From Comamonadaceae bacterium (lineage in GTDB: Bacteria; Pseudomonadota; Gammaproteobacteria; Burkholderiales; Burkholderiaceae_C), in NCBI GenBank assembly GCA_947447985.1, contig CANFLX010000004.1, positions 1-64,000 of the forward strand: DNA of 64,000 bases, in the 5' to 3' direction. This document shows positions 19,389 to 61,441 of this stretch, in pieces (position 1 is the first letter of the stretch; the number at the start of each line of letters is the position of its first letter). Made by a program: the position numbers and the translations under genes. The notes beneath the pieces were generated by a model. It was not told where the DNA came from, did not search any database, and saw nothing but the letters and a program-made list of their open reading frames with translations.

Positions 19389-20753
19389 ATGTTTGATTCG
19401 GTGAGCGAAGTTGCGCAGTCGCGTGCGCGGACAGTGGGCGGACGTGTTTTTGCTTTGGTGGCAACGATGGCGCTGGGCATTGCGCCAGCGGTCGCCCAGG
19501 ACCTCAAAGCAGTGATGACCGATGTGCTCAAAACCCATCCGCGCTTGGCGGCGGCACGCAATGACGTGGGATCCGCCGAAGCCAAAGTCAATGACACCTG
19601 GCGCCGCGCCTGGACGCCGAATTTTGACTTGAACGCCGAACGGGGCGTTCAGCGCTATGAGTCGCTTGCCAATGACAGCGCCTTGGATTACCAGCGCTAC
19701 GGTATTCGCGCTACGCAGCAGTTGTATGACTTTGGCAAGACGGGTCACCAAGTGGCGGAAACGCAAGCGGTACTCAACCAAAGCAAGGCCTTGGCAAGTG
19801 GCGCCGAGTCTGGACTGTTGTTGGAGGCCCTGTCCGCGCACTGGAGCTACGTGCGGGCGGACAAGCTGCTGGGCATTGCGCGCCAGTCCGAGGAAAGCGT
19901 GCGTCGCCAGGCAAAGATCGAGTCGTCCATGGTGGAGTTGGGCAAGGGCTATGAGTCCAATGTGCTGCAAGCCAAGGTTCAGTTGACATCTGCAGAGTCC
20001 CGGACCTTGCGTGCCGAGGGTGCGCTCGATATCGCGCAGGCCCGCGTGAAAGCGGTATTTGCCGACGCCACGGGCAAGTTGGATTACAAGGTCTTGTCGG
20101 TGGCCAAAGCGGACATGCTTCCCAAGTCATTGGACGAAGCGATTGCCATCGCGTTGCAGAACAACCAGCAAATTCAGGTCGGTACCCACCGCTCACAGGC
20201 CATCCAAGAGCGCATCAGCTCGACCGACGCCAAGGAATTTTTGCCCCGCTTTAACCTGATTGCCGAGAAAAACGGCCGAAAAAACACCGACGGCATGTCC
20301 AACGAGCGCATGTTTGGTGACGACAAGGTGTATGTCCAATTTCTGTACAACTTCAACGCGGGTGGTGCAGGCCAGAGCGCGGTAGAGGCTGTGAAGCGCG
20401 ACTTTGCGGCCAGTGTTTCGCGTGAAGTGGAAACCAAGCAGCTGGTGGAAGAGCAGGTCAGTATTGCCTGGCGCAATTACCAGGTTGCAGTTGATAACCG
20501 CAAGACGCTGGCGAACCTGGTGCGCATTGCGGCCAAGTTCTACGAGATGGCCGTCGCCGAGCGTCAAATGGGTCGCCGAAGCCTGCTCGAACTGCTCAGC
20601 GCAGAGCTGTCGCTCATCAGCGCACTGGGCGATCTGACATCCACCGAGGCCGATGCTGCTATTGCCTCTTTGACGCTGCTCCAGTCGGTAGGCCGTTTGG
20701 ATTTGAACAGCTTTGAATTGAAGTCGGTAGATGCCGTGCTTCCCAAGCTCTAA
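19389..20753 (+). CDS. TolC-family outer-membrane channel of type I secretion (first copy)
   Basis: A 454-residue TolC/LapE-type protein. A signal peptide ends near ALGIAPAVAQ (about residue 36). Two repeated halves follow, each with long helical coiled-coil segments and short beta-strand segments, the duplicated TolC plan. It precedes, on the same strand, the giant Calx-beta gene and then ABC and HlyD genes, so it probably forms the outer-membrane exit duct for the giant protein. A ribosome binding site (AAGGAT) precedes the ATG. A second TolC-like protein lies at 56007-57251, and which channel serves which exporter cannot be told from sequence. Confidence 0.9.
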   Translation: MFDSVSEVAQSRARTVGGRVFALVATMALGIAPAVAQDLKAVMTDVLKTHPRLAAARNDVGSAEAKVNDTWRRAWTPNFDLNAERGVQRYESLANDSALDYQRYGIRATQQLYDFGKTGHQVAETQAVLNQSKALASGAESGLLLEALSAHWSYVRADKLLGIARQSEESVRRQAKIESSMVELGKGYESNVLQAKVQLTSAESRTLRAEGALDIAQARVKAVFADATGKLDYKVLSVAKADMLPKSLDEAIAIALQNNQQIQVGTHRSQAIQERISSTDAKEFLPRFNLIAEKNGRKNTDGMSNERMFGDDKVYVQFLYNFNAGGAGQSAVEAVKRDFAASVSREVETKQLVEEQVSIAWRNYQVAVDNRKTLANLVRIAAKFYEMAVAERQMGRRSLLELLSAELSLISALGDLTSTEADAAIASLTLLQSVGRLDLNSFELKSVDAVLPKL

Positions 20754-29800: not shown

Positions 29801-32800
29801 GACGCGCTGGAAACCAATGACGGTATTCCTTCCGGAACCGTCACCTTCGAGGCAGGAGACAATGTCTCCAAGACCATCACCATCCGTGTGGCAACCGACA
29901 GTCTCAAAGAGAACAACGAAGTGCTGCGCGTGGTGTTGAGCGACGCCAATAATGGCACCGACATCGTCTCGGGCAATAGCACGGCCGATGGCCAAATTAC
30001 CAACGATGACGCGCTGGTGACTGTCACGGCCGGCCTCAATGACGGCACTGCCAAAGACTTGGACAAGCCCGAAGGCGATGCCGCGCTGCAAGGCGGCGTG
30101 CAGTACACGCCTTACACCTTCGTGCTGCACCGTACCGGCAACCTCAGCCAGGTCTCGCAAGTGGATTGGGCTGTGTCCGCAGAGAGCTCCGGGCTGAATG
30201 CTGCGGACTTTTATCAGCCGCTCAACACCTACACGATTACCGGTTCGAGCGTTGCCAGTCAGCTGCCTCGGGGCACTGCGACCTTTAACTCGGGTGTTGC
30301 AGATATTGAAGTCACCGTCTACGTGACCGCCGACTCCGGCGCCTACGGCTCGGGCCTGGTGCCTGGCAGCAACTGGCTGCATTACCTGCCCTATGGGAAC
30401 AACCAGAACAACAGCCCGTCGTCGACCCTAGAAGTCGATGAGTCTTTCTCTATTTCCCTGGCGCCCCACACCGCGAACGCCGGTACACAAACGGACAGCA
30501 CGCAAACCGCGGCCGTCATTCGCAACGACGACGTCAATATTCAGGTCACCGGCCTGGTGACCAACCGTGCGGAGGGCAACCAAGCGACCCAATACACCGA
30601 AGACGTGCTGCAAACTGTCACCCTGCAACGCCAGGGTGACCCGACCCAAGAAGTGGCCGTCCAGTGGTTTATGACCACTACGAAGGTGGGCGCTGGAGTG
30701 ACGCCTGAAACCTCGGCCAACCAAATTGCCCAAATTTTGGTCAATCACCACACCATCGGCGCGGTGCAAACAACGGTTGGCAGCGCCAACACCCACGAAG
30801 TCCAGGTGTTCACGCCCACCCTGGTGGCGCATGACGTCAATACCCTCACCGTCGGTTCCGTGGTCCTGACCAGCACCGCGACGCTGGATGCATCGCCCAC
30901 CATCGCAGAACTCATCAGCCACCTGACCACCGGTGCGAATGCGCCGATTTACGCCAATGCGGCGTTTACCCTGTCGGACGGCGGACAGGGGCAATTGGTC
31001 CTCACCTGGAAAAACACAGGTGCAGTGAGCGACGCTATCGGGCTCTCGGTGTCCGATTACGCCAGCGCCATGGACATGGCCAGCACGACACACGAGGGCA
31101 CGGCCAATGTGCTCGATAACGCGGGCAACATCACCGCAGCCGGCGATGTCGAAGTGCAAACGCTCGCACCGAGCGAGGTGTTGGGCAGCAGCATGCACAC
31201 GCTCAAAGCAGGTGCCACGGTGCTGACCACATCGGCTTATTTGGGCAACAGCACACCGCCTACCCTGGACCAGTTGGTCACGGCTTTCCAAGGGGCGGCT
31301 TCTTACGCAGGCGCTCCATTCACCATCAGTGCCAACTCAGCGCATGACGCCATTGTTATCACCTGGAAGGCATCCGGTGCGGTGACCGAACAGGCCATGC
31401 TCACCAGCCTGCCCATGAGTGGTGTGATGTCCTGGGCCGCAGGTAACAGCGACGCACTGAGCATTACCGTGCGACCTTTCAGTGACAACGTGGTCGAAGC
31501 CGACACCACGGTCCCGCTGTACATCAAACCGGTCGACGACGCTACAAGCCAGTACATCGACCAAATTGGTTTCAGTGCGACCAGCAACGCGGTCTACGCC
31601 GTGCCGTTCACGACTGCAGATTGGACGACAGAGATCGCCCAGCAACTGCCGGTGGCCAGTTTTGTCATCCGCCGTGACGAGTCAGCCATTTGGGTGTCCA
31701 ACCAGTTGGTTGGTGCTTACAGCGAAACCAGCAGCCTGCCTGTGGGCGTCACATCCACCTACACCGGCGGTGATTACTGGTGGGGTGGCGTTTGGGATAT
31801 CAGCTACAACGGACAACCCTCCAGTGCAGCGAGCAACGAGGGCTCGACGGGCACCGCCAACGCGGGCAGTGACTACACTGCTGCGTCTGCGGCGCTCACC
31901 TTCACTGACAGCACCCGGGTGCAAAACGTGACGGTGCAGATCACCAACGACAGCACGCACGAAAGCACCGAGTCCTTAAGCCTGTTCATGAACCAGGCCC
32001 ACAATGCCAGCGTGGTGGTGGACCGTGGCGTGGTCACGATCAATGACGATGACAAGTTGCCAGGCGATCAGGTCTATGCCCTCAAGGTGCAGGGCAACAC
32101 TGGCATCGAAGGCATAGATGCCAGTGGAAACGCATCGCCCAACGCTACCGTGGACTTCACCGTGGACTTTGGCAAGGCCCTGACGCAAGACACGCAGTTT
32201 GATATTGAGCTGCAGTCCGGTACGGCGCAGATGGCCAACAACACCAACTCTGGTGACTTCGGCCAGTACTTCAACTACTCTACCGATGGCGGCCAGACTT
32301 GGAAAACCAATGCACCGGTTTTCAACTTTACGTACACCTCGGCCAACTCCGTGCAAAGCGTGGACGACCAACTGGTCGCGAGCTACAACTTCAGCAACAG
32401 CTCGGGCAGCGGTTTCGACCAGTGGCTCGAATTCTCAGATCTGAAGGCCGGCAGTGGTGCCATGGTGGGCGGCAAAACCGTCGACTTGCCTTACGACTGG
32501 AACTATGTTCAAGACGGCAATGGGCGCACTACTTTCACTGTGTGGATTCCGGTACGGGTAGACGCCATCATCGACACCAACGCGTTGACGATGGGATTTG
32601 CCGGCATGACGGGCAGCATCAGCGGTCAGTTTATGGGCGTTGCGGACCTGGGTAGCAGCAGCCAAATCAACACGGACGCGCTTGCTTACCTGCAAAGCCA
32701 TGGCGCAGGGTCTACGGCGCAAGAGGTGCAGTCGCACTTCCACAGTTTTGATCCGACCAACGGTGCCGCCGATGTCAAATTCCTGCAGTTTGATCTCTCC

Positions 32801-35800
32801 TACAACAGCAATACCGTACCCGATCTGACTTGGTACGTGAACGGCTTGGATCCGATCTATGTGGTGGCACCACAAAGCACCAGTACTACGGCAGACGTTG
32901 CCTGGTCGCACTTGCAAGTGGTGCAAGACATCACGGTTCACGCGGGTGACACCACCGGCGTGGCCGACGTCGCACTGGGGGCCCAGGCCCATTTCGATAC
33001 GGCGTCCAGCAATGGCGTGACTGCAACGGCGGTTGCTGAAGACCGTTCGCTGGCCCCGACCTTCAGTGTTGCCGATGACACTGGTGTGGACCTCCAGACT
33101 GGCCTGCGCACCATCACGGTCACCGTGACGCGTGGCGATGGAGATCCCAGCCACGACAGCGCGCTGCCGCAGGACGTGGTGCACTATGACTTCAGCGTGC
33201 CGGGCCTCACCGCCGACAAGCTGACCTCTCTCTCAGCGGCGCTGCATGGCGGCGTGGCTTTTGATGCAGGCTCTAACACGACCACACTCACTTTTGAGTT
33301 CGCGGCCATGGAAGTGCCCCTGCCTTACTCCCCGCGACCGGCGGTGGTCAACCACGACCCCATCCACGTGGTGGTGGACGCGGCTGAGCCCTACAGTCAC
33401 AACGGGGGCGGTTCTACGCCGCTGGCCTATGTCGACACCAACGGTGACGGCATCCGCCAGGCGTCTGAAAACACCGTGGCCTTTGACTATGTCGAAGGCG
33501 GCTACCCGGGTGGAGGCCTCAATCGTGATCTCGTCGATCTGGCACACAACCAGGTAATCATCCACTTCAACGGTGTGCCCGATATGCCGCTGAACCTGGA
33601 AGGCTTTGGCGCGGACGACAAGATTGAGATTGATCGTGGCGGTTTGATTGCCAGCGGCTGGAAGGGCGGTAACGTCAGGAACGGTGGCAAGGCCACCAAT
33701 GACGATACCGTCAGCTCCCATTTGACCTCCGCCAGATCCACACTGTCTTTGAGCGGCCATACGGGCAACGGTCAAAGTTACAGTTTGAAGGTCAAGGGTG
33801 AGCGCACCCGGGATGTTTCTTCAGAAGGCGTTGACGAGAACAACCATCTCAAACTCTCAGGTCAGAAGTTCAACAGCTACGGACAAACAAGCGAAGGCAG
33901 CCGGTATGACAACTTCGCAAGCACCAGCAAGATGTTGGGAGACTTTGGCCACAACGGCATCGTTAACGCAAACCACTTCATGTCGAACCAGGTCAGCTTT
34001 GTGCCGGGCCATATTTCGGTCGTGGTTCAGGCCGATGGCGCATGGCTTGACACCAACAACGACGGTGAGCACCAGTCATGGGAAAACCAGTTGGCTTTCA
34101 GTGCGGATCAAGGCCACTACAGTTATAACAACGACCGTGTCGCTGTGGACAAGATCGACGTGCAGCACCATGCTGTCACCATTCATCTCAATGAAACCTT
34201 AGACCAGTACTACGGACACAACACCGTACTCGACCTGTCGGGCTTTGGCGCCGACGACAAGATTGAAATCAACATTCAAAGCCTGAGTGCGAATCAAGGC
34301 TGGGCTTTTGGCAGTGCCGGAGTCAGCCATGCGGCCGCTACTGGATACAGTGGTCACCAGTGGTCCACCAAAGAGATGGACCTGGTGGGATACCACAGTG
34401 GACATTATTCTGTTGAAGGCGTGCGCGCCAATATGAACGGCAGCGGCGCCTTTCAGAGCCACAATCTGGTCTTGCGAGCATATGGCTACACCCAGAGCTG
34501 GGGTGGCCCTGTTACGCATGACATCCGCTTCGCCACACTGGGCGAACTCACGCACGAGGGCAGCGCGCCTGACCGTCAGAGTCACCTCCTGGATGGCAAA
34601 GGGGGCTTGGCCAATCAAATTAGTTTTGTCACGCCGAACAACGCAGAGCACAACCCCAATGTGTATGTGGTAGTTGAACGCGATGGTGCCTGGATCGACA
34701 ACAATGCCGACGGTATTCATCAGGCCTACGAGACCCAGCAAGCCTTTGACTTTACCCATCTCAATGACCGCGGCGCGGCGATGGGCTTGGTCAACGTTGG
34801 CAGCAACTCGGTCACGGTGCGCTTTAATGACATTCCCACGGTCGCACTTGACTTGTCCGGCTTTGACTGGAATGACCGCATTGAAATCAACAAGGGAAGT
34901 CTCATCCAAAACGGCTGGGTCTGGGGCGTACAGGATGACTCGTCGGTGGGCAAACACTATGAGTCGTCGAGCAGCGCGCACACGCAAGTTCACCACCATG
35001 GGCAGAACTGGTCTGCCAATATCAAAGGGACCAAGTCCAGCGAAGGTCGCAACTCTTTGGTTTTCAGCGGTCTGCACAAGTTGGCTGGCAGTGGAAGCGG
35101 GCATTTCACGGCGATAGTGCCCACAGGTGGCGTGCTGGCGGACTTCGGTTCAAGTCTGGAGTCGAGCCCCATCCAGGGTGATGGTGGCTTCATGAGCAAA
35201 GTGTCTCTGGTACAGGGCGCGGTGCACGTGGTGGTGGACCGCACGGGCGCTTGGATTGATACCAATGCCGACGGCGTGCACCAGACCACAGAAAATTTGT
35301 TGGCTTTTGACGCCGCCGAGGGCGTGGGCCATGACTCCACCATTGGCTATTACAACGGTCGGGTCGCTGCCGATCTGATTGATGTGGCGCACAACGCGGT
35401 GGTCATCCGCGTCAACGACATGCCGGTGGACGGCAACGGCAATGAATATGCACTGGACCTGTCTGGGTTTGGCGCGGACGACAAGATCGAGGTCGACGTG
35501 GGAGCGATGTTCGCCGGCGGTCATTGGTATGGTCAATCGTCGAAGTCCCTGGTGCGTACTGGCAGTGACAACGGCTCTCGCAACAACAACTCCACGTCGA
35601 TCACATTGAATGGCTACGCCCAAAGCGATTCCCGATTCCGGTTTACCGGAACGCGCTCTGGCGGCCATTCCCACCAGCGTTGGGACACCAACCTGTTCCT
35701 CATCAAAACCTACACCAGCGACGGTGTCAATCGCCATTTCTTCGCGACATTGGGCCAAGCCACGTCTGAACAATCTAATCCGGCGCACCAAAGCTGGTTG

Positions 35801-38800
35801 ATTGATGGCCGAGGCGGCATGAGTGACCGCATCAGCTTCATCAACACGGCGGTGCACGTGGGTGTCGACGCCAATGGTGCGTGGATTGACACCAACGCAG
35901 ACGGACTGCGCACCATAGGCGAGGCCGACGCGGTTTTCGGCACCTTGAATGTGGATGGTGCGAATGTGGACCTGGCCCATCAAAGCGTGGTGATCCATTT
36001 CAACGATGTACCCGACTCGGCCATCGATATCAGCGGCTTTGACCGCAATGACCGTATTGAGATTGACCGTGCGTCCTTTGCCACCCACGGTTGGGGTGGC
36101 GCGCCGTCCGGCCCTCTGATGCAGCAGGGGCACGCTGCTAATTCGGACTACCAAAGCACCAAGGGCTTTTTCTACAGCTTCTTCCCTGCACCCAGCATGA
36201 TGCTGGCCGCGCACCGCACCAGCGATGCGCGCAACGTCAATCAGCTCAGTATCTTCGGCGTTGGCAGCGCGGGCTCACACGGCGGGGTCTTGGCGACTTT
36301 CGGCTCCTATGGCAACGACACGTCCAACGACATGATCGACGGAGCGGGTGGCTTTTTGTCGAAGGTAGATTTCGTCAACAAACCCACCATTCACGTGGTG
36401 GTCGATTCCCAACACGCGTGGGTGGACAGCAACAACGACGGCGTCTACAACAACAACGAAATGCTGGCTTTTGACCCCGTTGAGGGTAATTACCCGGGCG
36501 ACGGCGTTGCGACAGATTTGGTGGACCTGGCGCACCACAAAGTCGTGGTCACCTTCAAAGGTCTCCCGACCCAGACGCTGGACTTCAGCGGCTTTGGTCT
36601 GGACGACAAGATCGAGATCGACCGTGCAGCCATTGCACAAACACCGGGCTGGAGTGGAGCCAATTTCCATGCCACCTCTGCCAAAGACCATACGCGCTCC
36701 TCCGGGTATGGGGCTCACCGGGAGTTGAGGAATTCCAACTCAACGTTCTACATCTGGGTGCATCAGGAAAGCTCGCACTCCTACATGAACCTGTCGGTGT
36801 CTGCGTCGAGCAGTGAGACCTCGATGCGTGTGGCTGATTTCGGGACTGGACGCGTGAATTCCGTGATTGATATCCACGGCAAGTTGTTCAACAACATTAC
36901 CTTTGTTGACGGTGCTGCAGCCGAAGGCGGAGTCCAGCCGATCAATGTGGTGGTCGACGCCAGCGGCGCCTGGCTGGATGCCAACAACGACGGCGTTCAC
37001 CAGGAGTCAGAAACCACCACTGCGTTTGATATGGAGTATGGCGGCGTGGACCTGGTGGGTCTGAAAGACCACACTGTCACCATCCGCTTCAACGACGTGC
37101 CCACGACCGCGCTGGATCTGTCAGGTTTTGGCGCGGACGACCGCATTGAGATCAACCGTTTTGCATTGGTGCAGGCAGGCTGGGCGAACGGTTTGGTCGG
37201 TACCCAAGTCACGACGCCGCCCCCGATGATGGGCAGCCTGAAAGGCTTTGGCTCTGGTGCCTTCTTTGTTGCCGGCTACCCGGTGACCCACAGCGCCACC
37301 GTGACCAATATCAGGCTGGACTTGATGAGTGGAGTGGAAGGTCTAAGCCATCAGGCTGCGCTTGGCCAATTTGGTGCGAACAATGACCTGACGCACCAGA
37401 TGGGCGGCTTGATCGGGCGCGTGAGCTTTGTCTCCCCGACCTTGGTCGCTGGCGACGTCAGCTTTGGCATGGACCAAAGCGGCAGCCTGAGCTCTGGCGG
37501 CCGTACCGACCCGGGCAACACCATTACGGCGGGCGCAGGGTCCACCGGTATCTTGGTGCAAACACCTATCACCAACGACAAGATTGACGAGACCACCGAG
37601 ACCGTGGGCCTGACAGTGACGGCGCACGACGGCGACAGCTTCGTCATTCCCAACAACGCGGGCACCGCGTCGATTGTGGACAACGACAGCCCGGTGGTGA
37701 CCGCTGCCTGGTCGACCGGCCACGACGTGCAAACAGGCCGCTATTACTTGTTCCAGGCACTGGACATCAACCAGCGCAATCAGGTGTGGGATTACATCGG
37801 CAACCGCTATATCGCGGCGCCTGCAACGCCTTTGGCTGTGAATGGCAATACCGATCCCTCAGACGGCTACCTGGACCAAGTCAAAGACAGCAACGGCAAC
37901 TCGGTAACCACCCGTTCTGTCGCCACAGACGCTGGCGCCGGCCAGAGTTTTACGACCACCCTCACGTTCAAAGGAAGCTGGGAATTTGCCCTGGTGGACA
38001 CCGTACTTGGCCAGCACCGGAGTGCGGCAGGTTATCGGCCCTTGACGGTGGACCATGTGGACAGTGATGGCTTTTCTGTGGCCTATGTCACCGTGCCTTT
38101 GGGCACCGAGCAAGTGCTGCTGCGCTCGGGTATCAGCGCAGACGATGCCACTGCCGGTGTTTCGAGCCTGACGGCCGATCGTTTGCCCATGTCGGTACAG
38201 ATCACGCACGTGGATCCCGTGCTTGTGGTGCGCGATGTGGCAGTGAGCGAGTCTGACGGTACGGCGACCGCACAAGTGATTGCCGTAGGCGGTGACCTGG
38301 GCAACACCCCGGACAGCAGTGCCAGCGTGCATGTGGCCTCGGTGGATGGCACTTGGGTGGAGCGTACCTTCGTCTTTAGCCGTGAATTTGCCACGGCGGG
38401 CGTGCAAACGGCAAACTGGTCGGTGAGCGCCTTGTCGCACGCAGGCAGCGCAATTGCGGGCGAGCCTTACCGCGGTCAGTTTGTGGACCCCACCGGAAGC
38501 AACTATGTCTATGGCTACTTCAGCCACGAGACGACCACCACGGTGACCCCAGGCGATTTCGCGATTTTGGGCGACCAGTCCGCCAACGGCAGCGCCGATC
38601 CACTGTTTGCTGGTATGCCCAGCGGCACGGTCACCTTTGCCGATGGCCAAAAGGAAGTGGCCATTACGGTGCGGGTGCGCGCAGACAACGTCGGTGCGCC
38701 CATCAAAGACTTTGCAGTGGTGCTCACCGCTGCCAATGATGGCGCCCAGTTGTTGGCCAATCCAGAGGCACTGCTGACCTATGCGGCCTACGGCTACGCG

Positions 38801-45675: not shown

Positions 45676-47400
45676 ATGATTCGTCAGCTGATCAGCGATT
45701 TGCTAGGTGGCCGCCGTGGGGCCGAATTGATCGGGGCGACCGTCACCATCAATGTGCTGGCCCTCGGGTCTTCGATGTACAGCATCCAGCTACTCAACCG
45801 CTATGTGACGGTGGGCTTGGCGCCTACGCTGGTGACCCTGACGCTGGGAGTGCTGTTTGCCATTGTGCTTGAGGTGTCCTTGCGCAAGGAGCGGCAAAAA
45901 GTCTTGTCGGATTTGAACCGCGAAAATGATGCGCAGGTGAGCTCGCGTCTGTTTACCGCATTTGCCACCTCGCGCTACGAGGCGATGTCTGCGCTTCCTT
46001 TGTCGCAGCGGCGTGAGGCCTTGGGCGCGCCATCCACCTTGCAGCAGCTCGCCAGTACCAGCAACCTAGGCTCTTTGTTGGATTTGCCGTTTGCCTTGTT
46101 TTTCTTGTTTTGTGGCACCTTGTTGTATTGGCCCATGGGCATTATCGGTGTCACAGTCTGTGCTCTGACCCTTTGGATGGGCGTGCGTGGCGAGCGCGTT
46201 CAGCGCGCAGCGGCAGAAGAGCATGCCAAAGCCAACTCCCGCGCGACGCAATTGGGTCAGTTTTTGCTGACCGCGGGCGAGACCGTTCGCGGCCTGCCCA
46301 TGATGGGGCCGCTGCGCCGTCGCTGGACTGCGATCCAAAGCGAGAGCTTAGGAAGCCGCAGGGAAGGCATGTTGCTGCAGGCCAATTTGCAGCAGTCGAT
46401 TGCAACGGTCGGTCAGGTATTGACGGTGATGATCTACTGCGTAGGGGCCATTGCTGCAGTCAAAGGTGATTTGACGACCGGCTCCCTGATCGGTGCCAAC
46501 ATTCTTTTCAGCCGCGCGTTTGCGGTATGCAGCCGTGCCGCCTATTTGGCGGACCCGATTTTGCGTGCCACTCGCGCCAACGAAGCGCTCAAAGCCGTTG
46601 AAGTGAGTGAGCTTGAGCCTCTGAGCGGCGCCAGTCCGTCCGAAATGGCGGGCCACCTTGAACTGTTTGACGTGGCTTTTTCGTACCCGAAGCAGCCGGT
46701 GCCCATTTTCGAAAGCCTGAATTTAAAACTCGAACCGGGCAAGGTGATGGTCATCACCGGTCCCAATGGAGCGGGCAAATCCACGCTGGTCAAACTCATG
46801 ATGGGTTTGTTAACACCCATTCGCGGCATGGTGCGCAGCGACCGCATAGAACTGCGTCAGCTGTCGTCGGAGTGGTGGAGAAACCACGTGGGGTACGCCC
46901 CCCAGGAGCCGGTGTTCTTTGATGGCAGTTTGCGTGAAAACCTGTTGCTGGACCGAGCGGTCGACGACAGCACCATCATCGAATGGGTTCGCGACCTCGG
47001 CTTGGACCATTTTTTAGCCGCAGACCCGGCGGGTTTGGACAAGCAGATCAGCAGCCACGAGACCGGAATGGCGGTGGGCTTGCGCCGCCGCTTTGTGCTC
47101 ATTCGTGCGGTGATCGGCGATGCGAAGGTGGTTTTTCTTGACGATCCAACGGAGGGGCTGGACCAGGCCGGGCAGATGGCAGTCGCCAAGCTGTTGAACC
47201 GAATGCTCAAAGAGGGACGCACTCTGGTAGTCGCCAGCAACGAGCCCTTTATCTTGCGGGCGGCGGATCTGGTCGTCGACATGGGCAAAAAGCCCACCCC
47301 GGAGGTGAAAGTCGCGCAGCGGGCACCCGCACCGGAGACGGCCCCCATGGCTGGCACGGGTCTGGCAACGCCCAGCCAGAACGAGGAGCGTTCCGCATGA
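45676..47400 (+). CDS. Type I secretion ABC transporter with degenerate ATPase motifs
   Basis: A 574-residue transporter of PrtD-like length: six membrane segments (about 20-300), then a nucleotide-binding domain. No N-terminal C39-like domain is present. Walker A is intact (GPNGAGKST), as is the Q-loop (APQEP). The signature motif reads ETGMAVGLRRR instead of LSGGQRQR. Walker B reads VVFLDDPTEGLD, with Asp for the catalytic Glu, and the H-loop is VVASNEP, with Asn for His. ATPase activity may be weak. It lies after the giant gene and overlaps the HlyD-type gene by four bases, so it probably exports the giant protein, alone or with the intact exporter at 57248-59437. A ribosome binding site (AAAGGGA) precedes the ATG. 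Confidence 0.88.
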   Translation: MIRQLISDLLGGRRGAELIGATVTINVLALGSSMYSIQLLNRYVTVGLAPTLVTLTLGVLFAIVLEVSLRKERQKVLSDLNRENDAQVSSRLFTAFATSRYEAMSALPLSQRREALGAPSTLQQLASTSNLGSLLDLPFALFFLFCGTLLYWPMGIIGVTVCALTLWMGVRGERVQRAAAEEHAKANSRATQLGQFLLTAGETVRGLPMMGPLRRRWTAIQSESLGSRREGMLLQANLQQSIATVGQVLTVMIYCVGAIAAVKGDLTTGSLIGANILFSRAFAVCSRAAYLADPILRATRANEALKAVEVSELEPLSGASPSEMAGHLELFDVAFSYPKQPVPIFESLNLKLEPGKVMVITGPNGAGKSTLVKLMMGLLTPIRGMVRSDRIELRQLSSEWWRNHVGYAPQEPVFFDGSLRENLLLDRAVDDSTIIEWVRDLGLDHFLAADPAGLDKQISSHETGMAVGLRRRFVLIRAVIGDAKVVFLDDPTEGLDQAGQMAVAKLLNRMLKEGRTLVVASNEPFILRAADLVVDMGKKPTPEVKVAQRAPAPETAPMAGTGLATPSQNEERSA

Positions 47401-48725
47401 CCGCCGATGTGACAGATATCCACGAAAAGCCAGGCCGTTTCGCGCGCTGGAAGGAGCAACTGCCGGTGCCTTGGCGGCGCAACCCCTTGCTTTGGACGCA
47501 GGTCCTCACCGTCGCTGTGTTTGTGCTCTGGATCAGCTGGTTTCCTTTGGATGTAGCAAGTTACGCGCAAGGGCAAGTGATCCCTGCCGGCCAACTCAAG
47601 AAGATTCAGCATTTGGAAGGGGGCATCATTCGTGAGATTCATGTGACTGAAGGCCAGCAAGTGGCCCAAGGTACCGTGATCGCCGACCTCGAGGACGTGG
47701 CGTCCAATTCGGATGTTGGTGAACTCACCTCACGCGCGGCGTCCTTGCAAATCAAGGTACTGCGCTTGACCGCCAGTTTGACAGGGCAAGACCGTATGCA
47801 GATACCGCCAGAACTGGAGAAGGCGGTTCCCGACGTGGTACGTGATGCCCGTTCTGCATTGAGTTCCTACCGCGACCGGTTTGTGGCGATGGTGCAAACC
47901 CGTGAGGCACGTATTGCCCAGCGCAAGGCGGAAATTCAGGAATCCAAAGAGCGCTTATTAGGCTTGCAGTCGCGCAGCAAGATCATCGCCGACCAGGTTC
48001 GTATCAGCGAGCAGATGCTCAAGCAAAAGCTCAATAGCGAGTACGAGCATTTGCAATTGCTCAAGGAGCAGTCACAAATTGACTCTGATCGCAACACCAC
48101 GGTAGCGACTCAACAGCGTTCAGCCACCGCGTTGCAAGAAGAGATTGCATCCTTGGCGTCTTTCCGCAAAGAAGAAGAAGTTGGCTTGCGCAAGGAGTTG
48201 TTGGACGCAAATACCGAATGGAACTCTCTAAAAGAGCGTTTGCGCAAGCCGTCCGACTCCTTTGATCGAACCCAGGTGCGAGCGCCCGTGGCAGGCAGCG
48301 TGATGACGCTCTATTTCAAAAACCGGGGCGCTGTAGTCCCCCCAGGCGGAACGATTGCGACCCTGGTTCCCGAAGGTGAGGCCTTGTTGGTGGAGGCCAA
48401 ATTGCCGATCGGCGATGTGGGCTTTGTGCGACCGGGCGCCCCGGCGCGACTGTCATTGCCGACGGGGGCGAGTGGTTTTTCGACCATTGACGCCGAGGTG
48501 GTTCACATCAGCCCGGACTCGACCGTGGATGAGAAAAACGGGTCTTCTTACTTTATCGTGCGGCTGAAGCCCAAGCTGTTCGTATTCAAACGCGGTGCAG
48601 AGTCGTATCCATTGCGGCCCGGAGTGCAAGTGACGTCGGCCATTATTACGGGCCAGCGCTCGGTGTTGTCCTTGTTAATGGAACCCTTCCTTGGGAATGG
48701 CATCCGACCGCTCACTGAACGTTGA
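47397..48725 (+). CDS. HlyD-family periplasmic adaptor of type I secretion (first copy)
   Basis: A 442-residue membrane-fusion protein. A cytoplasmic N-terminus leads to one membrane segment (about residues 37-55, near LTVAVFVLWISWF). A lipoyl-like half (HLEGGIIREIHV), a long coiled coil (about 130-300), the second lipoyl half (VRAPVAGSVMTL) and a beta-barrel domain with PGAPARLSLP follow. It should bridge the inner-membrane ABC protein and a TolC-type channel. The ATG overlaps the ABC stop (ATGA). Confidence 0.92.
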   Translation: MTADVTDIHEKPGRFARWKEQLPVPWRRNPLLWTQVLTVAVFVLWISWFPLDVASYAQGQVIPAGQLKKIQHLEGGIIREIHVTEGQQVAQGTVIADLEDVASNSDVGELTSRAASLQIKVLRLTASLTGQDRMQIPPELEKAVPDVVRDARSALSSYRDRFVAMVQTREARIAQRKAEIQESKERLLGLQSRSKIIADQVRISEQMLKQKLNSEYEHLQLLKEQSQIDSDRNTTVATQQRSATALQEEIASLASFRKEEEVGLRKELLDANTEWNSLKERLRKPSDSFDRTQVRAPVAGSVMTLYFKNRGAVVPPGGTIATLVPEGEALLVEAKLPIGDVGFVRPGAPARLSLPTGASGFSTIDAEVVHISPDSTVDEKNGSSYFIVRLKPKLFVFKRGAESYPLRPGVQVTSAIITGQRSVLSLLMEPFLGNGIRPLTER

Positions 48726-48753: not shown

Positions 48754-50109
48754 ATGTTCAAAAGCAGCGTTCCTGAGTTGTGCTGGCCTGCGGTGATCGA
48801 CCCGCAAGCAGCGACCGTCTTTCACTTCCTTCATTTTTTGCGGCGTACACAGTGGCTCAAGCCCACTGTGCTCCAAAAAGCGCAGTCCATTCAATTGGCT
48901 GCGCGCTTGGAGCATGCGCGCCAACACAGCGCGGTCTATAGCGGGTTGTTAGGCGGCAGTCCTATCGCACCCCAGCGGGCTTTTTCCGTGCTTGCCACGC
49001 TCCCCATTTTGAGGCGATCCGACTTGCAGTCGGGCGGGACGCGGTATTTTGAAAACGTTCCGCCAGAGCATGGCAAGGTGTCTGCAAACAGTACCTCTGG
49101 TTCGACCGGCGAGCCCGTGACCGTGCGGTGTTCCGGGATTTCTTACGCATTGCGTGCTGCCCATACCATGCGTGGACACGCCTGGCATGGCGTGTCATTT
49201 CTAAGTTCTTTGGGTGCTATCCGAGGCGGCGTAGCGGAGCACGGCCAGGGTCAATCCATGGCCTTGCCCCACTGGGGCGGCTATACCGCCAAGCTGTTCG
49301 AGACCGGCCCGAGTGCCGCCTTGGACATCACAACGCCCTTGGATGAACAAGCGCTTTGGCTCAAGCAAGTTCAACCTGCGGTTTTCATGACACTGCCATC
49401 CAACCTGGATGCATTGCTGGACCTCATGCCTGCACCTTGGCCGGGTTTGGCGACCGTGCTGACCTTGAGTGAGGCGCTGCACCCGGATATTCGGGCCCGG
49501 GTGAAGCAGCAGTGGGGTGCACGGGTGTTTGACAAATACAGCTCTGAAGAACTGGGGCCTATCGCGTTCGAATGCGCGCATGGGCAATACCACGTGGTGG
49601 AAAACTTGGTCACCGAAGTGCTCAACGACAACGATGAGCCCTGCAAGGTGGGTGAGATTGGGCGCGTGGTGGTGACCGATACGTATAACTTCGCCACCGG
49701 GCTGTTCAGGTATGAAATTCGCGACCATGCCATGGTCGGGGAGGCCTGCGCCTGTGGACGCGGCCTGATGCCTCTGCGGCGCATCATGGGACGTGTGCGC
49801 AACATCATGACGCTGCCCGACGGAAGGCGTTTTTGGCCTTTGTTTGGCATGCGGACGTATGGCGAGTTGGCCCCCATTCGGCAATTGCAGGTGGTGCAGA
49901 CGGCGCTCGATAGCCTGACCCTGCGCATGGTGGTGCACCACGCATTGACGCCCGAAGAGGAGTCTGCCGTGGCCGACCGCGTCCGTGCTTCGGTGGGCTG
50001 GCCCATGCGCATCAGCTTCGAAACGGTCGAGGGTTCCCTGATCACGGGAAACAACCGTAAATTCGAGGAATTCAAGTCATTGATCGTGCCCCCTGAGGTT
50101 GCCGTGTGA
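48754..50109 (+). CDS. CapK/PaaK-like adenylate-forming enzyme (first of tandem pair)
   Basis: A 451-residue protein of the phenylacetate-CoA ligase/CapK branch of the ANL superfamily. The AMP/phosphate-binding loop is STSGSTGEPV (near residue 113), the A5-like motif KYSSEELGP and the late motif GEIGRVVVTD followed by FRYEIRD. A Cys-rich CACGRG stretch is typical of the branch. Members activate a carboxylate as an acyl-adenylate; CapK proteins often sit in surface-polysaccharide or secretion loci with unknown substrates. It begins 28 bases after the HlyD-type gene and overlaps the next paralogue by four bases, so it is probably cotranscribed with the exporter. Substrate not predictable. Confidence 0.85.
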   Translation: MFKSSVPELCWPAVIDPQAATVFHFLHFLRRTQWLKPTVLQKAQSIQLAARLEHARQHSAVYSGLLGGSPIAPQRAFSVLATLPILRRSDLQSGGTRYFENVPPEHGKVSANSTSGSTGEPVTVRCSGISYALRAAHTMRGHAWHGVSFLSSLGAIRGGVAEHGQGQSMALPHWGGYTAKLFETGPSAALDITTPLDEQALWLKQVQPAVFMTLPSNLDALLDLMPAPWPGLATVLTLSEALHPDIRARVKQQWGARVFDKYSSEELGPIAFECAHGQYHVVENLVTEVLNDNDEPCKVGEIGRVVVTDTYNFATGLFRYEIRDHAMVGEACACGRGLMPLRRIMGRVRNIMTLPDGRRFWPLFGMRTYGELAPIRQLQVVQTALDSLTLRMVVHHALTPEEESAVADRVRASVGWPMRISFETVEGSLITGNNRKFEEFKSLIVPPEVAV

Positions 50110-51440
50110 GAGTGCGTTCGGCGTCCTCGACCTTGCGCTGGCCCGCTTTGGTGCCGCCCAAAGCGCACAAAGTTCACGCCCTGTGGGTGCAGCTCATACA
50201 GGGGCAGGGGCTCACGGCGACTGCGCTGCAAGCGCTGCAAGATAAGCAGCTTGCGGCCCGTCTGGTGCATGCAGCGCAGCACAGCACGCACTTTGCGCCA
50301 CAGCTAAAAGGCGTGCAAATCGTTCCCGAAAATGCCCGTGAGGTGCTGGCGCGACTGCCCTTGCTTGGCCGCGCTGACCTGCAGACACAAGCAGAAAGCA
50401 TTTATTGCGCGACAGGCCCATGGCATGGCGCGGTACAAGAAAAAAGAACCACGGGCTCTACCGGCCAGCCCGTGGTGGTAAGGTGCACGGACGCTGCATT
50501 TGACTTGCGGGAGGCCATCACGCTGCGCAACTTCGCAGGCTTTGGCATGGATGTGCGCCAATCGTTTGCTGCGATTCGCAGCGGTGTGGCCAAGGGGCAC
50601 CCCGAGGGCATCAGCCGGCCCGGTTGGGGCGGCGTAATAGGCCAACTTTTTGTCACCGGACCCAGCCATGCGCTCGACCTTGCGACCCCCGTGGAGCAGC
50701 AAATAGCGTGGTTGGAAAAACACAGACCCACCTATTTGTTGACCTATCCCTCGAATCTGCAGCTATTGATGTCGATGGGTCTCAGGGCATGGAGCGGCTT
50801 GCAAGGCATTCTGACGGTTGGCGAAAACGTCAGCGACGAACTGCGCCAAAACGTGCATACCTGCTTGAAGGCGGCCGTCTGGGACCAGTACAGCTGCGAA
50901 GAAGCGGGCCACCTTGCTGCGCAGTGTTCCGCGGGTCAATACCATGTGCCCAGCGAAAATGTGCTGCTGGAAGTGTTGCGAGAGGATGGCTCTGCGTGCC
51001 TGCCAGGCGAAACAGGCCGCGTAGTTGTCACCGATTTGCGCAACTTTGCAAGCGCATTGCTACGCTACGAGTTGCGTGACTACGCCGAGCTGGGTTCAAC
51101 ATGCAGCTGTGGCCGGCATTCGCCAGTGTTGCGACGGATGTTAGGGCGTACCCGTCAGCAAATCCATTTGCCCGATGGCCGCAAGGTGTGGCCAAGTACG
51201 GGTCTGCGAAATTTTGTCGACGTGCCTTTGCGGCAGTTCCAGTTGGTCCAGCTTTCACTGCATCGTTTGGAGTTGCGCGTGCACACCGACCGTGAATTGA
51301 CACCGCAGGAAAAAATCCGCATTGTTGAAACCGTTCAAACGGCCTTGGGCCATCCTTTTGACATCGAGGTTGTGAATTCTTTACAAGCTTTGCCTTTGGG
51401 GCCGGGAGGCAAGTTCGAGCAATTCGTGTCTCTGGTGTGA
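50106..51440 (+). CDS. CapK/PaaK-like adenylate-forming enzyme (second of tandem pair)
   Basis: A 444-residue paralogue of the preceding gene with the same motif order: TTGSTGQPVVVRC, QYSCEEAGH, GETGRVVVTD, LRYELRDYA and a CSCGRH stretch. It starts with GTG overlapping the stop of the first copy, which suggests a duplication followed by divergence to a second substrate or a hetero-oligomer. It ends 10 bases before the convergent methyltransferase gene. Confidence 0.85.
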   Translation: MRVRSASSTLRWPALVPPKAHKVHALWVQLIQGQGLTATALQALQDKQLAARLVHAAQHSTHFAPQLKGVQIVPENAREVLARLPLLGRADLQTQAESIYCATGPWHGAVQEKRTTGSTGQPVVVRCTDAAFDLREAITLRNFAGFGMDVRQSFAAIRSGVAKGHPEGISRPGWGGVIGQLFVTGPSHALDLATPVEQQIAWLEKHRPTYLLTYPSNLQLLMSMGLRAWSGLQGILTVGENVSDELRQNVHTCLKAAVWDQYSCEEAGHLAAQCSAGQYHVPSENVLLEVLREDGSACLPGETGRVVVTDLRNFASALLRYELRDYAELGSTCSCGRHSPVLRRMLGRTRQQIHLPDGRKVWPSTGLRNFVDVPLRQFQLVQLSLHRLELRVHTDRELTPQEKIRIVETVQTALGHPFDIEVVNSLQALPLGPGGKFEQFVSLV

Positions 51441-55720: not shown

Positions 55721-56006
55721 TGTGGGAGCCTTCAAAATAACCAAAAACGATACCAAATTTATGCAAATTTGACTTTTGATTGTACCTACCCAAAAACGTC
55801 AATTCCCTCTATTTTGAGGGGGCCGACAAGAGCCAAAAGGGCGGCCCGCCATGCCGCACTGATGGGCTAAAATCCGAGGGCAGACCAAGAGATCTGTCAG
55901 CCTGCATTGGGACCTGTCAAGCGATATGACGGGTTGAAAAAATACTTTGCAATGTTTTTGTGCGCGACGCCAAAGTATTCATGAATTGATTGTTTCCGGA
56001 TTGCAA
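55721..56006. promoter_or_regulatory. Divergent regulatory region with repeated YCTGTCA boxes
   Basis: This gap separates the sulfotransferase gene (-) from the second type I operon (+) and should carry both promoters. At 55891-55900 and 55911-55920 the boxes GATCTGTCAG and GACCTGTCAA are 20 bases apart. The second also pairs with TGACGGG at 55927-55933, giving a near-palindrome, and could be an operator. No -35/-10 pair with good spacing was found. CCCTC/GAGGG around 55807-55823 is a short hairpin. Confidence 0.35.
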
Positions 56007-57251
56007 ATGTGTAAATCAATGCAGAAATTGTTCCTTCTGGTTTTCCTGCTGATTCCAGTCTTCAGCCAGGCACAGTTGCGAACCGAGGACGCGTTAACGC
56101 AAGCATTGGCCTCGCACCCCACCATTCAGTCAAAGCAGAACGACTTGAAGGCCGCCATGGAGCGCCTGGGCGTCTCCAGCTGGGGCTACTGGCCTTCCGT
56201 GTCTTTGCAATCGACGGCGATGCAGGATTCGGCCACCCTGCCCGTGACCGTGCGGCTGGAGCAGCCCCTGTGGGCGGGCGGTCGACTCGACGCCGATTTC
56301 AAATTGTCGGAGGCCAAGGTGCGCATCGCCAAAGCCCTTTTGGTAGAGGCAGAGCAGTCGCTGATGGTCAAAGTTGCGTCTGCGTTCGCGGAAATCCTGC
56401 GCTTGCAACTCCGGATTGAAGCGGTGGATGAAAATGTGGCGGAGCATGAGCGCCTGCTGGCGTTGATTCGCCGACGCGCCGAGGCCGAAATCTCGCCCGA
56501 AGGGGACGTGGTGGTGGCCAAGGCACGACTGCAGCAGGCTTTGTCGGATCGGATTCAGCTGCGCAATACATTGGCCAATGCACGCGGTGACCTTGATCAG
56601 CTGATCTCGCAGCGCTCCGGCCCGCTCCAAGCGCCCGTGCGCGTCCGGATCGATTCAAAGACCTTGGAAGAACTGCTGAAGCAGGCCGAGGCGAACGCGC
56701 CCATGCTGGAGCGCATGGCGGCGGAAATGGTGTCGGCAGAAGCCGACATCGATACCGCCAAGGCGAGTTATTACCCGCAACTCAGTGCCCGCTTTGACCG
56801 AACTTTCGGCAACACCAACCAAAACAACGAGCAGACCTACCTCGCGCTCACTTTTCAGCCGGGTCCGGGCCTTGCCGTCGCGTCCTCCGTCCGCGCAGCC
56901 ACTGCGCGCAAAGAGTCGGCGGCCGATGCCATTGAAATTGCGCGAAAAGAACTGTTGGACAAAGTTCGGACGGACTGGAACCAACATCAATCCGCTGCGG
57001 CTGACAGCGAAGTGCTGGCGGAGTTGGTCACCGCCACGCGCGCCAGCTACGAATCCGCGATTCGCCAGTATCCGATCGGCCGAAAGAGCTGGTTGGAGGT
57101 TCTTAATTCGCAGCGAGAAGCCACACAGGCGCGCAATTCTTTGGCCGATGCCATGTGGTCCGGCTACCTTGCGGGCGTGCGCGTGTCGATCGCCACAGGC
57201 GATCTCTCCAGGCAAACACTTACCCAGCCCAGTCAGGTGAACAAGCAATGA
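56007..57251 (+). CDS. TolC-family outer-membrane channel of type I secretion (second copy)
   Basis: A protein of 414 residues from the ATG at 56007 (56019 is also possible), starting just before a signal peptide (LFLLVFLLIPVFSQA). Long helical repeats with the LapE/TolC pattern follow (QPLWAGGRL in the first half, YPIGRKSWLEVLNSQ near the end). The stop overlaps the ABC gene's ATG. It is the outer-membrane member of a complete TolC-ABC-HlyD operon. Confidence 0.9.
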   Translation: MCKSMQKLFLLVFLLIPVFSQAQLRTEDALTQALASHPTIQSKQNDLKAAMERLGVSSWGYWPSVSLQSTAMQDSATLPVTVRLEQPLWAGGRLDADFKLSEAKVRIAKALLVEAEQSLMVKVASAFAEILRLQLRIEAVDENVAEHERLLALIRRRAEAEISPEGDVVVAKARLQQALSDRIQLRNTLANARGDLDQLISQRSGPLQAPVRVRIDSKTLEELLKQAEANAPMLERMAAEMVSAEADIDTAKASYYPQLSARFDRTFGNTNQNNEQTYLALTFQPGPGLAVASSVRAATARKESAADAIEIARKELLDKVRTDWNQHQSAAADSEVLAELVTATRASYESAIRQYPIGRKSWLEVLNSQREATQARNSLADAMWSGYLAGVRVSIATGDLSRQTLTQPSQVNKQ

Positions 57252-59437: not shown

Positions 59438-59443
59438 CTGACC

Positions 59444-60643: not shown

Positions 60644-61441
60644 ATGTCACACATCTCCGAGTCCACCCTCTTTGAGCTGCTCTTGCCCATCGCCCGACGC
60701 GCGGGCGCCGCGATCATGGAAATTTATGGCAGTGAGCAATTTGCCATCAACCAGAAAGCGGACCAGAGTCCGGTGACCGCTGCAGATCTTGCAGCGCACC
60801 ATGTTCTCGTTGACGCACTGGCCCCGCTTTTGCCGCAATGCCCCATCGTCTCGGAAGAGGATGACGCCTCTCAGGCGCACCGCCACAGCGAGGGCCGGTT
60901 CTGGCTGCTGGACCCGCTGGACGGCACCAAGGAGTTCATTGCCCGCAATGGTGAATTCACCGTCAATATTGCGCTGATCGCGCAAGGCAAGACGGTGCTG
61001 GGCGTCGTCTATGCGCCAGCCATTGATTGCATGTATTGGGGCGGAGCGGGCCTGGGCGCCTACCGCATGCAAGGCGGGGACAAAGAAGCAATTGCAGTCG
61101 GCGGGGGCGATGCCCATGGCGTCTGCCGGGTGGTCGCCAGCAAGAGCCATTTGAACGCGGAGACCCAGGCCTTTATCGACCAGCTCAATCCAGTGCAACT
61201 GGTGCAAGCCGGAAGCTCCTTGAAGTTTTGCCGTGTCGCAGAAGGCGCCGCCGACATCTATCCCCGTCTAGCGCCCACCTGTGAGTGGGACACCGCCGCG
61301 GCACAAGCCGTACTCGAGGGCGCAGGCGGTGCGGTGCTCGACCTGCATGGAAGCCCGCTTCGCTATGGAAAAGAGCAGGTGTTGAACCCCTCGTTCATCG
61401 CCACCCGGGACGTCGCTCTGATTCCAGCAGCACCCCGATAA
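60644..61441 (+). CDS. cysQ: CysQ-type 3'(2'),5'-bisphosphate nucleotidase
   Basis: A 265-residue member of the inositol-phosphatase superfamily. It has the metal-binding EED near residue 70, DPLDGTKEFI (about residues 90-99) and WDTAAAQAVLEGAGG, the typical CysQ pattern; the KEFI ending separates CysQ from SuhB. CysQ removes the 3'-phosphate of PAP, the product of every PAPS-dependent sulfotransferase, and so relieves product inhibition. Its place at the end of the type I operon, opposite a sulfotransferase operon, fits that role, although CysQ also serves sulfate assimilation generally. Confidence 0.88.
   Translation: MSHISESTLFELLLPIARRAGAAIMEIYGSEQFAINQKADQSPVTAADLAAHHVLVDALAPLLPQCPIVSEEDDASQAHRHSEGRFWLLDPLDGTKEFIARNGEFTVNIALIAQGKTVLGVVYAPAIDCMYWGGAGLGAYRMQGGDKEAIAVGGGDAHGVCRVVASKSHLNAETQAFIDQLNPVQLVQAGSSLKFCRVAEGAADIYPRLAPTCEWDTAAAQAVLEGAGGAVLDLHGSPLRYGKEQVLNPSFIATRDVALIPAAPR

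Follow-up and report, generated by a model that had tools for sequence, protein, structure and literature searches.

The 64,000-nucleotide stretch analysed here (the window; positions 1 to 64,000 of contig CANFLX010000004.1, Comamonadaceae bacterium assembly GCA_947447985.1) encodes a giant Calx-beta surface protein that carries seven copies of an undescribed repeat, which we call the module, and, on the opposite strand, a tetratricopeptide repeat (TPR) sulfotransferase. Our genome comparisons show by co-occurrence that the modules are inherited with one clade of TPR-sulfotransferase. The module is probably a type I-secreted domain of ~160-240 residues and represents a new family whose calcium loop is of a known type; its Ca2+ binding, sulfation and secretion are what we infer from sequence, predicted structure and gene context. 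That it is a secreted Ca2+-folding domain acting as partner, and perhaps substrate, of a dedicated sulfotransferase is a proposition we hold to be evenly balanced.

The module array covers residues 4170-5528 of the giant protein (nt 33356-37432) and consists of seven modules of 166-217 residues, which have diverged to 30-42% pairwise identity (n=7) and share 16 invariant columns. Across the entire protein there are seven occurrences of the pattern D.N.DG.....E, at residues 4196, 4401, 4617, 4804, 5014, 5193 and 5377, exactly where an earlier sequence-only reading of this DNA had placed seven loops with D1, N3, D5, G6 and E12 in every copy; the mean number of matches in 200 residue shuffles is 0.015. 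A GFGADDKIEI-like strand, described in the same reading as common to all seven, is indeed found once per module as GFxxxDxI.[IV], the last residue always being preceded by E. With seven in-frame copies against that expectation, and homologues in other genomes, it is scarcely credible that the repeats are a chance resemblance or translation artefact; within the window's own genome, a profile search at E <= 10 returned these seven copies only.

Conservation of the loop extends to the wider family. Alignment A4 brings together 36 modules from seven genomes (13 further matches in genome G884 and six in G932 and G934 were left out); their median pairwise identity is 31% (n=36), and the loop ligands D1, [DN]3 and [DN]5 are each present in 36/36, G6 in 35/36 and [ED]12 in 35/36, with position 5 occupied by D in 26 modules and N in 10, while positions 2, 4, 10 and 11 vary around the fixed ligand positions. 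All features of a Dx[DN]xDG calcium-binding loop (D1, [DN]3, [DN]5, G6 and an acidic residue 12) are present. The core runs from a beta strand through the Dx[DN]x[DN]Gx5E loop and two paired strands to the GFGxDD[RK]IEI strand and then a short helix, and the module ends with a hypervariable stretch followed by a beta hairpin and VSFV strand; the variable stretch spans 56-138 residues and varies in length and letters, whereas the core is conserved. In the available part of PMC3123361 (Rigden et al. 2011), loops of this type are described as Ca2+ binders in many folds, strand-loop contexts among them, with the spacing and ligand positions seen in the module; the module differs from the loop families described there in that its remainder, for example GFGxDD[RK]IEI, has no match to a described family.

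The predicted structure of module M7, built from the 36-row alignment, has a mean predicted local distance difference test score (pLDDT) of 79.4, with block values of 92-98 over residues 1-80, below 50 at residues 92-121 and block values of 73-87 in the closing hairpin at 126-147. In this model strand 11-14 enters the loop at 15-26, coil and short strands follow, and the first helix of at least four residues lies at 75-80, preceded only by three-residue turns at 33-35 and 43-45; the module core is predicted to be beta, without flanking helices, and the loop to be of the Dx[DN]xDG calcium type. The EF-hand or dockerin kinship suggested by the sequence-only reading did not survive this comparison, and we consider such domains very improbable. 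The spacing of D1, N3, D5, G6 and E12 is that of the EF-hand, going by the available part of PMC3123361, and 6/36 modules match EF-hand_5 weakly (best E 0.048), but the predicted order is strand, loop, coil and not helix-loop-helix, and loop position 8, where EF-hands have a hydrophobic residue (Ile, Leu or Val), is occupied by H, R or Y in all of the window's modules and by L or I in 16/36 overall (0/7 in the window). Each module has one loop and no duplicated loop-helix, and no dockerin family stands among the nine Pfam families matched at E <= 1 by the 36 modules.

The further claim of an undescribed repeat with a calcium-type, putatively Ca2+-binding loop is supported; the copies were set against described families, and no Pfam or NCBIfam model reached its cut-off. 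For the array region, the best of 24,736 Pfam models was GEVED (PF20009), at 16 bits against a cut-off of 24.4; it is similar to the module in a short stretch at the loop and differs in that only ~20 residues are alignable. When the 36 modules were searched singly, the lowest E was 0.0088 in Pfam and 0.014 in NCBIfam, and five of them reached 0.014 at the lowest in PHROGs; against PDB sequences, the seven-row profile A1 reached E 0.072 and the 36-row profile A4 E 1.1 at best. The former match, to the serralysin C-terminal domain of an alkaline protease over ~32 residues, was lost with the wider A4 and was set aside as a look-alike of limited length. Two ubiquitin chains, presumably carriers of lanthanide tags, and S-layer protein SlpA were matched at the loop only, with E of 1.1 and above. 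A Foldseek search of the model against the PDB gave no credible relative, with a best E of 1.1 and probability at most 0.09 among the best 50 of 57 matches listed, which does not prove a new fold. Staphylococcal SdrD B repeats bind Ca2+ and contain a D-x-N-x-D-G-x5-E loop like that of the module; they are not among its Pfam matches, and the likeness is by description only.

The module family was found in nine genomes: the window's, a Magnetospirillum, two beta-proteobacterial metagenome-assembled genomes (MAGs) and five genomes from the Geotalea order or the Desulfuromonadales. Scanning 84,980 species genomes with one motif turned up six loci besides the window (L036-L041; Table 1), and because that scan used a single pattern the true number of module genomes is probably larger; a profile search over the order of G883 (Geotalea; 141 genomes) added G932 and G934, giving four genomes with modules. 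Matches number 7, 7, 7, 7, 3, 17, 1, 3 and 3 in G000 (the window's genome), G880-G885, G932 and G934, 55 in total; in G934 (L123) the module gene and the sulfotransferase gene are each split over several frames in the assembly. In samples of genus, family and phylum that are draws from larger groups, modules were absent from 99 further genomes of the window's genus and, at 1e-8, from 397 other genomes of the phylum, and no credible module was found in 398 other genomes of the family; the 54 other genomes of the family of G880 (Magnetospirillum) likewise had none. The 28 family genomes that matched A1 at 1e-3 were dropped as weak look-alikes ahead of the count of module genomes, matching only at positions 48-148 with 20-25 bits; 26/28 matches fall in open reading frames (ORFs) of 361-411 aa, and the dozen alignments viewed show a His-rich protein that we take to be a CobW-type GTPase. 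Phage and plasmid searches with M1, and a viral-contig search with two module alignments, found no relative.

The window enzyme resembles tyrosylprotein sulfotransferases (TPSTs): it matches Sulfotransfer_3 (PF13469) at E 8.8e-47, its PRSGTT is the motif for 3'-phosphoadenosine 5'-phosphosulfate (PAPS), and its catalytic part matches protein-tyrosine sulfotransferase chains at E 1.4e-10 to 8.9e-9, while its TPR part matches engineered TPR proteins first and O-GlcNAc transferase (OGT) next. Relatives at 60-64% identity to it occur in 7/8 other module genomes, and in the eighth, G934, the enzyme is present in four pieces of 46-75% identity; enzyme and module gene share one contig in 8/9 module genomes. 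Among the 141 genomes of the G883 order, the four genomes with modules are also the four with the enzyme, a coincidence of 1/C(141,4)=6e-8 if genomes were independent, although this tells against us to the extent that 4/141 overstates independence because three Geotalea-order genomes look closely related. Among 200 family genomes, the close form of the enzyme is present in the window's alone; three others have enzymes at 35-41%, and ~20 kb on either side of these contain no module, although TolC, ABC and HlyD-type genes lie near the one in G280 (4-6 candidates were scored per genome in the family and order samples, 4 in the family). A search of 72,556 plasmid records returned six enzyme matches at 1e-60, the best at 41.5%; of the four inspected, one is in a type I locus and one beside an autotransporter. 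On an Enterobacter sp. 638 plasmid (L094) a TPR-sulfotransferase, a distant relative, adjoins a family 8 glycosyltransferase and an autotransporter, a further case of a secreted protein next to this type of enzyme.

The ATP-binding cassette (ABC) and HlyD proteins of the giant gene are 59-66% identical to their counterparts in L036-L038 and 23-27% to those in three Desulfuromonadota loci (L039, L041 and G932), against 24-28% to those of two module-free loci, and the window's second ABC protein is 36-37% identical to L039, L041 and G932 and 38% to the module-free loci. The enzyme, at 60-64%, and the module are the sole compared parts that run closely through the loci, and the enzyme keeps this identity across differing scaffolds (Calx-beta, cadherin) and modules of median 31% identity.

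We tentatively propose, with slightly less than even confidence, a sulfated-adhesin system in which an enzyme with OGT-like TPR and TPST-like parts sulfates a new Ca2+-folding domain on giant type I-secreted fibres and on small proteins that consist of little more, with PAPS genes in some loci, from beta-proteobacteria and Magnetospirillum to the Geotalea order. OGT fuses a TPR superhelix to an enzyme that modifies protein hydroxyls; the window enzyme, whose TPR part matches OGT and which has a sulfotransferase in place of the glycosyltransferase domain, would in a similar manner bind its still-unfolded substrate in the cytosol. The TPST-like domain would then use PAPS to sulfate the module, on hydroxyl side chains or on a glycan that it carries, most likely within the variable stretch. 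Export would proceed through the type I system of the locus, each module would fold outside upon Ca2+ binding in its loop, and the resulting long fibre would contain a block of domains that bear sulfate and are locked by calcium. Variable stretches contain 3.94% Tyr and 12.7% Ser, against 2.27% and 9.1% outside modules. TolC, ABC and HlyD genes adjoin the giant gene, the gene context of type I secretion, and the giant protein is probably exported by that system; the order module gene, sulfotransferase, TolC, ABC, HlyD recurs in Geotalea, L041 and G932, and G884 contig C766 reads glycosyltransferase, enzyme, TolC, ABC, HlyD, CysD, CysNC. CysD and CysNC adjoin the enzyme in G880, follow the secretion genes in G884 and lie at the far end of the locus in G881, and an adenosine 5'-phosphosulfate (APS) kinase is found in 10/10 genomes searched, the nine module genomes included. 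Module-free relatives also have nearby PAPS genes (cysC in Comamonas; APS kinase at G280:C85:63754), and the window's CysQ could remove the 3'-phosphoadenosine 5'-phosphate left by a sulfotransferase.

To our knowledge, bacterial protein sulfation is known mainly from RaxX. RaxST is reportedly without TPRs, unlike the window enzyme, and a search of one literature collection for TPR-sulfotransferase substrates found no work on such an enzyme. A working precedent is provided by Xanthomonas, where RaxST sulfates RaxX ahead of type I export; as described in the available part of PMC6637879, raxX-raxSTAB brings together PAPS supply, a TPST-like sulfotransferase and a type I route by which the sulfated product is exported, as proposed here from genes. 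The Rax system also differs: RaxX is made as a precursor of 60 residues that bears a double-glycine leader, and the Rax PAPS genes are housekeeping genes (PMC6637879), whereas those of the module system lie in the locus in 3/9 genomes. A Rax-type small double-glycine peptide substrate was rejected on size, the candidates being ORFs of about 380 to 8247 codons. In Comamonas endophytica, plasmid NZ_CP106882.1 has a giant cadherin protein, TPR-sulfotransferase, TolC, ABC, HlyD and cysC in a row, like the module loci, but lacks a module, and its enzyme is only 43% identical to the window's.

Several observations weigh against sulfation of the modules, and some of them favour a simpler alternative, possible though in our judgement doubtful, in which the module is a plain structural repeat that binds Ca2+ outside the cell and stiffens or lengthens the stalk, while the enzyme acts elsewhere, on a surface glycan or lipid, as an operon fellow traveller. 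Giant type I adhesins are commonly Ca2+-stiffened, and the strong conservation of the loop would suit such a role, as would the lack of a fixed acceptor, since a search over the 36 modules found no invariant Ser, Thr or Tyr column. Thr is depleted in the variable stretches (8.1% versus 10.5% outside modules), and this depletion, with the modest Tyr and Ser enrichment, could perhaps reflect surface composition. Classical sulfation sites are tyrosines in an acidic context, unlike those of the variable stretches, where 50% of Tyr lie near acidic residues, no enrichment over Phe (51%) and Gly (47%). TPR-sulfotransferases at 41-43% identity occur in type I loci without modules (the Comamonas endophytica plasmid and G280), and because of these relatives the enzyme's substrate may be a feature common to such secreted proteins. 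In G884 the enzyme's contig (C766) is not that of the modules; ahead of the enzyme gene there lies one for a group 1 glycosyltransferase, a glycosyltransferase also adjoins the distant relative on the Enterobacter plasmid, and an OGT-type TPR protein with a glycosyltransferase family 41 domain (L082:4729-6768) lies among the Geobacteraceae MAG module genes, so that a glycan could be the sulfate acceptor. Nor is the enzyme the sole tracking part, because for the window's second HlyD identity is slightly higher with three module loci (45-46%) than with two module-free ones (41%). As for PAPS supply, the APS kinase family is common (11/14 control genomes), in 6/9 module genomes the best APS kinase is found outside the locus, and CysQ is found only in the window's locus among the loci compared.

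Several results weigh against a purely structural role. The enzyme clade at >=60% identity was seen only with modules (nine module genomes, the same 4/141, and none else of the 200 family genomes, with 4 candidates scored per genome), no gene for glycan synthesis was seen to accompany those for module, enzyme and type I system in the Geotalea and L041 loci, where most ORFs were not domain-searched, and the small proteins of G884 consist of little beyond one or two modules. A further idea, compatible with sulfation of the modules and in itself rather unlikely, is that the hypervariable stretch is a ligand-binding face, which would make the array an adhesive head and not a spacer, with Ca2+ setting the fold only. 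The conserved core beside a variable 56-138-residue stretch and the drop in pLDDT at residues 92-121 would fit this, but no known binding fold was matched and low pLDDT may reflect only a shallow alignment. The variable stretches of the 36 modules also contain 46 Cys, against 8 in 24,117 residues outside modules, which suggests possible disulfides in L036 (20 Cys) and L037 (21), to which 41/46 belong; the window's modules have none.

The claim that the array splits a Calx-beta unit is supported by complementary profile matches, weakly for the window's closing part and clearly in three relatives. Pfam detects Calx-beta (PF03160), the host scaffold, in both array flanks. Against a profile of 11 of the giant protein's own units (E values for 12 short pieces), the upstream flank piece of the array aligns at positions 17-77 (E 1.7e-4) and the downstream piece, weakly, at positions 58-118 (E 0.009); in L036-L038, six flank pieces match positions 15-78 and 56-118 at E <= 1e-5. 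The flank pieces at this site (B) overlap by ~20 profile columns, with the same strand pair in both, and the window's two pieces against Pfam alone gave no Calx-beta call; TAGAGSTGI (residue 5560) and the protein's sole DNDSP (5611) both lie past module 7. The giant proteins of L036-L038 align with the window protein in long stretches, the main ones at ~30-39% identity, and carry one module at another site (A) and six at site B, where the window protein has 0 and 7. Site A is bounded by VG[GE] and T[VM]WIPVRAD, and its host domain has sub-threshold Pfam matches only, with no clear Calx-beta match. As read from the sequences, the module is inserted into a Calx-beta unit and, in the three relatives, into a second domain as well, while elsewhere it follows cadherin repeats (Geotalea and L041) or forms most of small proteins; one or two modules are found in several Geobacteraceae MAG ORFs (384-579 codons), mostly after a ~180-residue leading part that, in those read, includes a hydrophobic stretch. 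The array of L036-L038 looks old, because best matches fall at the same array position in 23/42 cases (chance 6) and several positions group together in the module tree, of which 12/33 inner branches are open. Best matches of the window's modules do not track array position, and 5/7 of them (M1-M4, M7) form a cluster of modest support (80/82), which suggests local re-expansion.

Other features of the region were also recorded (Table 1). The LssB model is matched by the ABC protein at 45676-47400 only from position 153, the model's N-terminal part seemingly missing, and a further type I set (TolC-type, ABC, HlyD) occupies 55947-60631. Two side-by-side PaaK-like adenylating enzymes (48754-51440) follow the ABC/HlyD pair, and a 29% relative follows a module gene in L040. 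Past the window end, a second long ORF of at least 4628 codons starts at ~G000:C4:66115 (L085), and on the same contig a 680-codon ORF has two Sulfotransfer_3 matches (G000:C4:88781-90385; L103).

Table 1. Features of the window, and module loci in other genomes
Feature	Position (nt)	Strand	Details
TolC-type outer-membrane protein, upstream of giant gene	19389..20753	+	OEP E 6.6e-43
Giant Calx-beta surface protein, module carrier, 8247 aa	20849..45592	+	Calx-beta E 2.4e-72 before array, 3.3e-45 after
Site A, module-free in window, residues 3876-3896	32474..32536	+	alignment with L036, L037, L038
Site B, N-terminal part of interrupted Calx-beta unit	33047..33355	+	own Calx-beta profile positions 17-77
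Module M1, 217 aa	33356..34006	+	loop DTNGDGIRQASE from nt 33434
Module M2, 215 aa	34007..34651	+	loop DTNNDGEHQSWE from nt 34049
Module M3, 188 aa	34652..35215	+	loop DNNADGIHQAYE from nt 34697
Module M4, 210 aa	35216..35845	+	loop DTNADGVHQTTE from nt 35258
Module M5, 179 aa	35846..36382	+	loop DTNADGLRTIGE from nt 35888
Module M6, 184 aa	36383..36934	+	loop DSNNDGVYNNNE from nt 36425
Module M7, 166 aa	36935..37432	+	loop DANNDGVHQESE from nt 36977; structure predicted
Site B, C-terminal part of interrupted Calx-beta unit	37433..37720	+	profile positions 58-118, weak in window
Type I secretion ABC transporter, 574 aa	45676..47400	+	62-66% identity to L036-L038 counterpart
HlyD-family adaptor	47397..48725	+	TIGR01843 307.7 bits, cut-off 208.65
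TPR-sulfotransferase, 868 aa	53150..55756	-	TPRs and Sulfotransfer_3; PRSGTT at residue 512
CysQ, 3'(2'),5'-bisphosphate nucleotidase	60644..61441	+	TIGR01331 285.9 bits, cut-off 228.8
Module locus L036			Magnetospirillum moscoviense (genome G880)
Module locus L037			Ramlibacter MAG
Module locus L038			Comamonadaceae MAG
Module locus L039			Geotalea sp. SG265 (genome G883)
Module locus L040			Geobacteraceae MAG (genome G884)
Module locus L041			Desulfuromonadales MAG

In summary, our analysis adds a new domain family to the giant adhesins and offers the module, within a five-gene locus, as a concrete and testable substrate candidate for TPR-sulfotransferases. The pairing of the module with one clade of these enzymes is the most interesting result of this work, and it hints at adhesins that may be decorated with sulfate.

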